DNA of 64,000 nt from Nitratidesulfovibrio termitidis HI1 (GTDB lineage: Bacteria; Desulfobacterota; Desulfovibrionia; Desulfovibrionales; Desulfovibrionaceae), in contig NZ_KI632512.1 in the NCBI RefSeq assembly GCF_000504305.1, positions 2,799,469-2,863,468 on the forward strand. Reading direction: 5' to 3'. Made by a program: the position numbers and the translations under genes. How positions within the stretch are numbered: position 1 is the stretch's first letter; each line of letters begins with the position of its first letter. Shown in pieces: positions 2,321-33,908 of this stretch. The notes beneath the pieces were generated by a model. The model saw only the letters and a list, made by a program, of their open reading frames with translations, was not told the DNA's origin and did not search any database.

Positions 2321-2422
2321 GTAGGCATGTCGCGCCCGCGCGGGCGCGCCCTGTCCGGGGTTTTCGCAGCGCACCGAAACGCATCGCAACACGCCGCACC
2401 ACCGGCGTATCTGGAGGCTCAG

Positions 2423-3538
2423 ATGATCGTTGGCATCCTGAAGGAGATCAAGAAGGAAGAAAACCGCGTCGCCATGACCCCCGCCGGGGTCGAGGTGATG
2501 GTGCATGCCGGGCACACCCTGCTGGTGGAAAAGAACGCCGGCGCGGGCAGCGGCTTTGCCGACGAAGCCTACGTGGAAGCGGGCGCGACCATCGCGGCCA
2601 CCCCGGCCGAAATTTACGCCAAGTCCGACATGGTCATGCACGTCAAGGAGCCGCAGGCGTCCGAATACGGCATGATCCGTCCCGGCCAGATCGTGTTCAC
2701 CTACCTGCACCTGGCCGCCGACGAACCGCAGACCCAGGCCCTGATCAAGAGCGGCGCGGTGTGCATCGCCTACGAAACCATCCAGAAGGCCGACGGCAGC
2801 CTGCCCCTGCTCACCCCCATGAGCGAAGTGGCCGGCCGCATGGCCATCCAGCAGGGCGCCAAGTATCTGGAAATGGCGCAGGGCGGTAACGGCGTGCTGC
2901 TGGGCGGCGTGCCCGGCGTCGATCCCGGCACCGTGGTGGTCATCGGCGGCGGCGTGGTGGGCACCCATGCGGCCCGCATGGCCTGCGGCCTGGGCGCCAA
3001 GGTGTACATCCTGGACATGAGCCTGGACCGCCTGCGCCACCTCAGCGAAGTGATGCCCTCCAACTGCTTCCCGCTCATGTCGTCCCCGGCCACCGTGCGC
3101 AAGCTGGTGCGCGAGGCCGACGTGGTGGTGGGCGCGGTGCTGGTTACCGGTGCCAAGGCCCCCAAGCTGGTCACCCGCGACATGCTGAAGACCATGAAAA
3201 AGGGCGCGGTGATGGTGGACGTGGCCATCGACCAGGGCGGCTGCTTCGAAACCTCGAAGGCCACCACCCACACCGACCCCACCTTCGTGGTGGACGGCGT
3301 GGTCCACTACTGCGTGGCCAACATGCCCGGCGCAGTGGCCAAGACCTCTACCCTGGCCCTGACCAACGCCACCCTGCCCTACGCGCTGACCATCGCCAAC
3401 AAGGGCTGGAAGCGCGCCATGCAGGACAACTGCGAAATCGCCAAGGGCGCCAACGTCATCGACGGCAAGATCACCTTCAAGGGCGTGGCCGAGGCCTTTG
3501 GCCTGGACTACGTTGCCGTGGATACCTTCCTGAATTAG
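2423..3538 (+). CDS. ald: Alanine dehydrogenase
   Basis: 371 aa, the usual length for the family. It starts [20 protein letters not shown] at an ATG preceded by GGAGG (2413-2417). The in-frame extension upstream has no Shine-Dalgarno and lies across the promoter. The N-terminal substrate domain carries the conserved Lys/Arg region (VAMTP) and [11 protein letters not shown]. The Rossmann NAD-binding domain is [21 protein letters not shown], followed by conserved [10 protein letters not shown] and [13 protein letters not shown]. The enzyme interconverts L-alanine and pyruvate plus ammonium using NAD(H) in the cytoplasm. In this group of bacteria it feeds alanine into pyruvate metabolism. It appears monocistronic, with a sigma-54 promoter upstream and an intrinsic terminator about 140 bp downstream. 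Confidence 0.97.
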
Positions 3539-32019: not shown

Positions 32020-32269
32020 AGGGGCTGTTTCTAAATTGTCCTTTCGCCCGTTGGCATCGTCAAACTTCACCCGCCATAGCTTTGCTGTCCTTATCCGTAA
32101 GGTTCGCTTCACTCACCTAACGGCTAAGGCTCGGTCAAATACGATAAGAGTACGCTCTGCGGTCGCCATCCGTAATGCTCGAAGACTCGCATAACGGCTG
32201 CCGCACTCCCTCATGGCGGGCTTGTTTTTCTTGCCAACGAACGAAAAACCTAATTTAGAAACAGCCCCT
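32020..32269. mobile_element. MITE-like element with 18-bp perfect terminal inverted repeats
   Basis: AGGGGCTGTTTCTAAATT (32020-32037) and its exact reverse complement (32252-32269) bound a 250-bp segment of clearly lower GC than its surroundings. No transposase frame is present; the longest internal open frames are spurious. Termini beginning GGGGCTGTTTCTAAA resemble IS5-family (IS427-type) ends, which target CTAG/TA. The left end here lies in gCTAGggg, but the right flank is TG, so a clean TA duplication is not seen. The interior has related segments such as TAAGGTTCG, TAAGGCTCG and TAATGCTCG. Confidence 0.8.
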
Positions 32270-32655
32270 GGTCCGCCCTGCGCATGGCGCCGGAACGGGC
32301 AACGCGCGGCCTGCCAAGCCAGTCAGGTCGGCCAGGCGAGACGGGTCAGTCAGGAGACACGGGTCAGCCAAGTCAGTCAATCCAGACGGGTTCGGCGCGA
32401 CAAGGTCTGGAATTTCCGAGGCCGGAAGGGGAGCGGTTCCCTTTCCGGCTTCGTGCGTTCCGGCGGGGAGGCGGAGGGGGGACCGCCGGGGGGATGGCAT
32501 GTGCGGATACCGCATGCCCGATGCGTGGGGAAGACATGAGCCCATGCATGCCTTCGTGCCAGTGGCGTATGCAAGTGGCGCGTGCCGAAAGGGCGATGCA
32601 CTCGATCGCATCCGGTGTGCTGCCCTGCTTGCTGCGGGTATGGCGGGTGTCTTGC
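32270..32655. other. Intergenic region without a supported gene
   Basis: Between the MITE-like element and the TTGCACA cluster there is no frame with convincing codon use or a Shine-Dalgarno. A degenerate GTCAGCC/GACGGGTCAG repetition (about 32320-32395) resembles the other minisatellites. Nothing else is seen. Confidence 0.5.
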
Positions 32656-32709
32656 TTTTGCACACGTGCAGCCCTTTTGTGCAAAACTGATGTGCATCGT
32701 GTTGCACAA
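32656..32709. promoter_or_regulatory. Cluster of TTGCACA motifs (putative enhancer site)
   Basis: TTTTGCACA (32656-32664), TGTGCAAAA (32678-32686) and TTGCACAA (32702-32709) alternate in orientation, giving two nested inverted repeats with 9-bp and 8-bp arms. The cluster is 60-115 bp upstream of the -24/-12-like element at 32771, the usual place for an enhancer-binding protein. Confidence 0.55.
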
Positions 32710-32770
32710 ATGGAGTCTGCACATTTCCTCGAAAAATATTAACATGCTGAAAATAAACATTTTCAATGTT

Positions 32771-32786
32771 TGGCACGCCCTGTGCT
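32771..32786 (+). promoter_or_regulatory. Sigma-54-like promoter with no downstream gene
   Basis: TGGCAC-gccct-GTGCT carries a perfect -24 box and the invariant GC of the -12 box, with GG-N10-GC spacing; one -12 position deviates (GTGCT for TTGCT). No convincing coding sequence follows for 880 bp. Confidence 0.6.
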
Positions 32787-32796
32787 AATTCTCTGT

Positions 32797-33463
32797 CAGC
32801 GCATGACAACGCTGCCCTTCGCAGAGTGCAAGAGCCTGATCCCCCTGCTTCCCTGACCGCCGCGACCCGCCGGTCGCGGCGGCCCCCCCTCCCCGGCACC
32901 ACGGTGGAAGGGCGGAACAGGAACCGGAAAGGGACGAGGCGCCCGAAGGCAACCCACGTGCGGCCCGGCACGTTCCGGGCGGCAGGGGAACTCCGCGAGA
33001 CCTTCGCGGATACGGTGGACGTGTGGCGTCCCGTTCCCCCACCGCTCCTGGCCTCTCTCCGGTTCCCCCTTGCGGAGAAAGGCACGGGCAATGAATTCGC
33101 GGCAACGGCAGCCGGGCCAAGGCGACGGCCCGGACGACCGAAGCGATACGGGAGCACCGGCAGACAGCCGCACTGCACCCGCACTGTGCCGGACCGACCT
33201 CCTCCTGTCCGCACGGTATCTCCAGCCGGGGGCTCGGAGCCCCCGGAAGCGACCAGCGGCCGCCACGGCGACCGACGACATAGTGCCCAAAGCACACGAG
33301 ACAGCGACCAGCCCAAACTCCTCCTTCGTTGATGCAGTGACCGCAGGGGCGGCGGGACAGCCCACCCGCCGCCCCCCCCTGGAAACCCTCCTTGCTCCCC
33401 CTTGCACTCTTGGACATCCGACCCCCTTGCGGAACCCCGGCCACCCTGGCCGGGGTTCTGTTT
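32797..33463 (+). ncRNA. Putative structured RNA, about 660 nt
   Basis: From the predicted start after the -24/-12 element to an intrinsic terminator, no frame looks like a real protein. Perfect hairpins occur at 32859-32880 (9-bp stem), 32956-32973 (6), 32992-33010 (7), 33112-33133 (7), 33226-33246 (8) and 33348-33377 (10), before the 11-bp terminator stem. GC content is high, so some stems are expected by chance, but this many long ones is more than I would expect. No motif of RNase P, tmRNA, SRP or 6S RNA is recognised. It could instead be a long untranslated leader of the 53-aa gene if the terminator is leaky. Confidence 0.4.
33433..33463 (+). terminator. Intrinsic terminator of the putative RNA
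   Basis: AACCCCGGCCA (33433-33443), loop CCC, then TGGCCGGGGTT (33447-33457), followed by CTGTTTT. A strong rho-independent terminator on the plus strand with no coding gene directly upstream. Confidence 0.8.
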
Positions 33464-33668: not shown

Positions 33669-33830
33669 ATGGACAGCTACATCGTTCGCGGCATCCTCAT
33701 CGGCGGTTCCCTCGGCGTGTTCGCTGCGCTGCTGGGCCTTAGCGACAGCATTCCCCGCGCCTTCGGCGTGGGCATGATCGGCGGGTTTCTGGCGGGCATC
33801 ACCCTGGAACGCCGCCGTCGCCGGAAGTAG
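33669..33830 (+). CDS. 53-aa membrane protein
   Basis: MDSYIVRGILIGGSLGVFAAL..., with two hydrophobic segments (about 5-23 and 29-45) and a strongly basic end (ERRRRRK). An AAGGAC sequence lies 6-10 nt before ATG 33669. Glycine-rich helices and the basic tail suggest a small inner-membrane hairpin with a cytoplasmic C-terminus. No family is recognised. Confidence 0.65.
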   Translation: MDSYIVRGILIGGSLGVFAALLGLSDSIPRAFGVGMIGGFLAGITLERRRRRK

Positions 33831-33908
33831 CCGCACCCCGCCGCTCCCTTCCGTTTTCAGCGCAACGCCATTTTCCGCCTGCACCGCATGGTGCACGCGC
33901 CAATGCAA

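Follow-up and report, generated by a model that had tools for sequence, protein, structure and literature searches.

A conserved predicted RNA of Nitratidesulfovibrio with accessible anti-Shine-Dalgarno motifs, a sigma-54-type promoter and a ZraSR-like candidate regulator

Described sigma-54-dependent RNAs and the present locus

For D. vulgaris Hildenborough, four sigma-54-dependent ncRNAs have been predicted (Kazakov et al. 2015, PMC4641369). One of them lies upstream of DVU3282 and was placed in the DVU1419 regulon under 'envelope stress response, posttranscriptional regulation' (PMC4641369). DVU1419 is the sigma-54 response regulator of a three-gene operon and binds upstream of its own operon (Rajeev 2011, PMC3333781); the legend of Fig. 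2 of that paper gives kinase, regulator and Hpt genes for the system. The preliminary description of the locus studied here regarded a sigma-54-dependent RNA in a sulfate reducer as novel, a view that the four published predictions (PMC4641369) do not bear out. What is new here is the RNA family, its conservation, its anti-Shine-Dalgarno (anti-SD) design and the proposed exchange of RNA and ZraP.

The predicted RNA is encoded in a stretch of DNA of 64 kb, hereafter called the window. It shares with the ncRNA upstream of DVU3282 a sigma-54 promoter, a response-regulator enhancer-binding protein (EBP) predicted to control also its own operon, and the organization as a stand-alone RNA. Since the window system fits the published description of DVU1419, the two RNAs are probably relatives; they are likened by description, not by sequence, and the text consulted gives no RNA structure, motif or distribution. 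ZraSR-ZraP, which responds to envelope and zinc stress, is similar in that ZraS is the best match of the kinase and that PF13801 genes stand behind a like promoter in other genera. It differs in that all matches remain below the equivalog cut-offs and in that the conserved loci found in this genus comprise the kinase-regulator operon and the RNA.

Promoter, transcription unit and conservation

All features of the unit lie on the + strand. The -24 box with GG-N10-GC spacing noted in the preliminary description was found at 32771..32785 (TGGCACGCCCTGTGC, TGGCACG-N5-TGC). This sigma-54 consensus match is the sole exact one in 64 kb, is invariant in all eight congeners with the exception of one spacer base, and is kept at other regulon loci. 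By itself it would be weak evidence, as sites with at most one mismatch occur at chance level (13 found vs 14.8 expected in the window). Upstream lies a cluster of TGYRCA half-sites (UAS, 32658..32724), near-invariant or fully invariant in the 8 congeners. The cluster had been recognized before, with three motifs; five half-sites are in fact present, namely TTGCACAC (32658), TTGTGCAA (32677), ATGTGCAT (32690), TTGCACAA (32702) and CTGCACAT (32717). They are predicted to be bound by a ZraR-like response regulator. Taken singly, TGTGCAA is not in excess (7 in the window vs 8.2 by chance). What matters is the half-site cluster plus the promoter, not the single motif, because a composite of both matches the RNA locus in every congener and its reversed control gives 0. 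By sequence, the region combines GG-N10-GC spacing, a TGGCAC-N5-TTGC-like core and an EBP UAS, as in a sigma-54-dependent promoter.

With the +1 placed at about 32797, as deduced from the -12 element, the predicted ncRNA comprises ~668 nt (32796..33463). The intrinsic terminator proposed earlier was confirmed at 33432..33463: a 12-bp perfect stem (33432-33458), in which two pairs show compensatory changes between species (helix 23), is followed by TGTTTT. Near the other end, a strong 5' hairpin (GACCGCCGCGACC / CGCC / GGTCGCGGCGGCC, 32852..32885) has one compensatory pair at its base (helix 5). RNAalifold analysis of the 8 genomes further predicted a long-range closing helix spanning about 545 nt, between 32796..32811 and the invariant segment 33327..33340 (CGUUGAUGCAGUGA); all of its 12 pairs are invariant and speak neither for nor against pairing. 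The strong hairpins of the preliminary description are reflected in folding relative to dinucleotide shuffles (z = -6.05 for the + strand). Strand specificity is not, as the reverse complement folds nearly as well (z = -5.30), so that folding energy alone settles neither strand nor function. No Rfam 15 family was found above the gathering threshold, and chance matches up to E<=10 lay far below the cut-offs, which rules out a known RNA family within these limits.

The RNA is present in 8/8 genomes of the genus, with 83-92% identity in the other seven, and in all 8 it is located between a DUF523 gene and genes for a 54-aa membrane protein and DsbA. Its 5' and 3' parts are more variable than the core (32940..33360). 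The core, with 92-98% identity between species, is as conserved as, or more than, the neighboring DUF523 (89-93%) and DsbA (92-96%) genes, and its conservation extends to unpaired as well as paired positions. In the window, the DUF523 gene and the RNA are separated by an element of ~250 bp (32021-32272), which is AT-richer and flanked by terminal repeats in near-perfect inverted orientation (GGGGCTGTTTCTAAATT...AATTTAGAAACAGCCCC); it looks like a MITE.

No reading frame is preserved over the 8 genomes. Within the core, 1-nt indels between species break the frames, and a protein-coding unit was rejected on frame analysis, in agreement with the earlier statement that no convincing protein is present. 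A shared ATG (MTTLPFAECK...) lies at 32803, close to the inferred +1, and could be the start of a small-protein or dual-function mRNA; the conserved ORF of the genus g5 units described below perhaps points the same way. The ORF at this ATG, however, varies in length (11 codons in six of the genomes, 17 for the window copy and 220 in the remaining one), and apart from it the analysis found no frame common to all 8. We therefore consider a coding function of this kind improbable for the window RNA.

Compensatory changes were scored on the RNAalifold structure. Among 190 pairs, 8 changed on both sides, compared to 3.1±1.2 in shuffles (0/500 as high) and 0-2 when the structure was slid along the alignment. 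The structure derives from the same alignment of eight related sequences, in which most pairs never vary, and the covariation thus supports the varying helices, namely the base of the 5' hairpin, helices 12 and 14 and the terminator, and not the whole fold. The anti-SD stem described below and the closing helix are invariant and consequently give no covariation signal either way. Neither the covariation nor the search for a conserved ORF argues against an RNA. A locus that merely binds the regulator as DNA and yields no functional RNA is very unlikely, given the compensatory changes in terminator and stems and a predicted transcribed region conserved like coding DNA. The initial proposal of a structured RNA that stands alone and has its own RpoN promoter is supported by conservation throughout the genus, lack of a conserved ORF, compensatory changes and an assignable EBP. 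It is very likely, judged from these comparisons, that the element is a real, conserved gene unit.

Candidate regulator and regulon

The regulator was sought among 29 of the EBP genes of the genome. The ortholog of the response regulators of zraP operons is L046 (also L153; G000:C1, about 289-293 kb), which is 60-65% identical to them, while the next of these 29 EBPs reaches about 50% or less. The adjacent kinase matches NCBIfam ZraS best. Equivalog status is not reached for any component (ZraS, 256 of 479 bits in this genome; ZraR, 399/760 in L137; ZraP, 31-52/200), and the system is referred to as ZraSR-like. A 121-aa ORF of the same orientation, Hpt-like as judged by eye, lies 0.9 kb further downstream. 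The region upstream of the kinase gene contains half-sites, among them TTGCACACGTGCA, which is identical to the sequence at 32658. It also contains GTTGGCACGAGGTTTTC, which resembles a sigma-54 site but has an imperfect -12 element; like half-sites also precede zraP and ncRNA units of other genera. A search of the genus with both half-site orders plus TTGGCACG returned the RNA in 8/8 genomes, the kinase-regulator operon in 7/8 and one further non-conserved match. In the eighth genome (G001) the operon has these sites too, apart from a single base change. The RNA and the kinase-regulator operon thus appear to be the only conserved loci of the genus with this pattern, a search that would miss targets with weaker sites. 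The same UAS stands before regulator operon and target, as in a DVU1419-type (ZraSR-like) regulon, and the ZraSR-like system is the likely regulator of the RNA promoter, acting via sigma-54.

Other regulators were noted in the same genome. L063, an EBP near one TTTTGTGCAA site, was rejected as the regulator because this site is solitary, as are all TTTTGTGCAA sites found elsewhere in the genome search. A PF13801 (ZraP-like) gene (G000:C1:2791741-2792046) and, near it, the sigma-54 activator L036 (2795213) lie about 4-8 kb before the window and may form a second ZraSR-like set. Within the window, an ACT-domain sigma-54 regulator and an alanine dehydrogenase gene (by eye) lie side by side (273-2057 and about 2400-3538), matching the DVU0569-DVU0571 arrangement (Kazakov 2015, PMC4641369).

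A BLASTN side match in genus g5 (L016) showed like half-sites and promoter before another short unit. The composite pattern (TTGTGCAA, TTGCACA and GGCACG-N6-GC with variable gaps) was found in 46/348 genomes of the order, belonging to 11 genera and with no match of the reversed control, and the kinase profile in 174/348 (E<=1e-40). The kinase is present in 45 of the 46 pattern genomes, and the pattern in 1 of 174 genomes lacking the kinase (Fisher p=6e-14, a value inflated by the kinship of the genomes). The exception, G136, is an assembly of 62% completeness. Two sorts of targets follow the pattern: zraP-type genes or operons, and units without an obvious gene of this kind. The target is a small secreted protein at L074, L084, L086, L087, L094, L101 and L151. 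Three of these proteins were scanned and gave a PF13801 (Metal_resist) match, ZraP remaining below cut-off. At six of these loci a ZraS-like kinase and a sigma-54 response regulator occur in the wider locus, in most cases with a DUF4405-like gene in between (Pfam-confirmed in L137 only). At L095 and L146 the target resembles a SHOCT-type small protein by eye; the Pfam scan gave no match.

The RNA units of other genera adjoin unrelated genes, which bears on the idea that the window RNA is a leader or attenuator of the downstream gene. The 54-aa membrane-protein gene (33670-33831) does follow the RNA in all 8 genomes, but a strong terminator with compensatory changes and about 200 nt intervene, and the equivalent units elsewhere have no such neighbor in common; a leader function is very improbable. 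In other genera, BLASTN with the window RNA gave no more than the promoter stretch in G139 and, in three genera, short matches rich in GC. A covariance model built from 161 nt of the core hit, beyond the genus, two g26 genomes only (E 7e-5 and 0.009), and these were judged chance GC hairpins. As the model is convincing in the 8 congeners only, the RNAs of other genera do not appear to be recognizable relatives, the link being promoter and motif.

In genus g5 (L031, L032, L096-L100, L103, L139, L141-L145, L147-L150) a like promoter is followed by a conserved 62-67-aa ORF, M(I/H/N)DAVTVTLIIL...LLRRSLL, predicted to encode a membrane peptide. Its length differences are mostly in-frame. With its ATG 2-4 nt away from the inferred +1, the ORF would be leaderless; behind it come segments with conserved ACCAUACCUCCCUU and CCCCUCCUC, and a terminator that covaries. 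Changes fall 931 times on third, 831 times on second and 761 times on first codon positions, which favors coding only mildly. A CAU that precedes the CCUCC segment is predicted to pair with the start codon, and the g5 unit may be a dual-function RNA. At L103 a second TGYRCA half-site cluster is located 3' of the RNA unit and may mark a tandem copy or a different target. Genus g22 (L088, L092 and L089-L091) has two distinct RNA-like units behind a like promoter, one with a GAACGG-ACCUCCUCCUCA-CCGUUC hairpin and the other nearly devoid of CCUCC.

Anti-Shine-Dalgarno motifs and comparison with known RNAs

The clearest anti-SD site of the window RNA is the loop CGACCUCCUCCU of a hairpin at 33186..33214 (GUGC(C/A)GGAC / CGACCUCCUCCU / GUCCGCAC), the stem of which is invariant in 8 genomes. 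Its CCUCC motifs, complementary to the Shine-Dalgarno sequence, at 33198 and 33201 have unpaired probabilities of 1.0 and 0.78. A second accessible motif, CUCCUCCUU (33318..33326; unpaired 0.84), is invariant in the genus. In the window RNA alone the number of CCUCC motifs is not significant (5 vs 2.3 expected, p=0.08), and the anti-SD case builds on the comparison between genera. Over 11 RNA groups, 17 accessible CCUCC motifs were counted vs 2.97±1.91 expected, in 9/11 groups vs 2.4 expected; the unpaired threshold (0.7), the grouping and the unit ends behind these counts are analyst-chosen, the group L093 could be an mRNA leader, and the groups B1 and B2 belong to a single family. CCUCC ranks first among 5-mers occurring in at least 5 groups; two 5-mers confined to two groups rank higher by the ratio used. 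Accessible CCUCC is absent from seven zraP mRNAs of the same regulon. A search for mRNA targets with longer complementarity to the loop (CAGGAGGAGGT ahead of an ATG) gave none that is conserved.

These motifs suggest how the RNA may work. A stress of the envelope or by metal would be sensed by a ZraSR-like kinase and its sigma-54-activating regulator. In its active form, the regulator would bind the TGYRCA half-sites, activate sigma-54 RNA polymerase at TGGCACG-N5-TGC and likewise activate its own operon. The resulting ~668-nt RNA would fold into many hairpins and expose CCUCCUCC-type anti-SD stretches, one in a hairpin loop and one in a single-stranded segment. By pairing, these could cover the ribosome-binding sites of a set of mRNAs and repress their translation. 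Such an anti-SD repressor is the best available mechanism, to which we give about an even chance. With 668 nt the RNA is long for an antisense regulator, which counts against this; alpha-r14/NfeR1 and CcsR RNAs are much shorter. A large structured RNA under the same control could instead act without antisense pairing, as a scaffold or by binding or sequestering protein, CCUCC being a by-product of C-rich sequence. Size, the many invariant stems, the predicted closing helix and a core conserved in unpaired and paired positions alike would suit such a role, but the unpaired CCUCC in most regulon RNA groups and not in zraP mRNAs is at odds with it, and we regard it as rather unlikely. On the whole we lean slightly towards a stand-alone, trans-acting RNA, put out by a ZraSR-like system through sigma-54, that represses translation by covering ribosome-binding sites. 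Comparison of sequences supports the gene unit and its conservation, the assignment of promoter, UAS and regulator, and the predicted accessibility of the anti-SD motifs.

A more tentative proposal, which we would not put on the same footing, is that the ZraSR-like switch has exchanged its output between the periplasmic chaperone ZraP and unrelated long anti-SD-exposing RNAs. The slot would be fixed, RNA and protein interchangeable, and the 668-nt RNA a new large structured class. If the favored reading is right, these bacteria would meet envelope or metal stress with a long RNA that represses translation, and the regulon would illustrate how one two-component switch can employ either a protein or an RNA effector. 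RNAs of this class, known in sulfate reducers mainly as predictions, are thereby given a candidate regulator and promoter, a phylogenetic distribution and a mechanism that can be tested.

Silencing of mRNAs by NfeR1/alpha-r14 RNAs proceeds by way of CCUCCUCCC anti-SD motifs located in three hairpins (PMC10746234), and the transcripts of CcsR RNAs also encode the small protein CcaF1 (PMC10253847). With these alphaproteobacterial alpha-r14/NfeR1 and CcsR ('cuckoo') sRNAs the window RNA shares the CCUCCUCC anti-SD motif in unpaired hairpin regions and, as proposed, the link to stress; a co-transcribed small protein, as in CcsR, may also exist in the g5 units. The loop at 33195-33206 is of the CCUCCUCC(C) type, the third final C missing, and there is one clear CCUCC hairpin loop in place of three similar motif hairpins with homologous sequence. 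Their promoters differ as well (sigma-70 for NfeR1, RpoH for CcsR, sigma-54 for the window RNA), and no Rfam sequence match was found. NfeR1/alpha-r14 and CcsR are best viewed as functional analogues, not relatives. The Vibrio Qrr sRNAs (LuxO/sigma-54) are short multi-copy Hfq RNAs unlike the window RNA in sequence and signal; like the window system, they combine a response-regulator EBP with RNA as the main output. RNAIII of S. aureus is unrelated, has no sigma-54 promoter and encodes a peptide, but it resembles the window RNA in being long (514 nt) and in carrying C-rich anti-SD loops.
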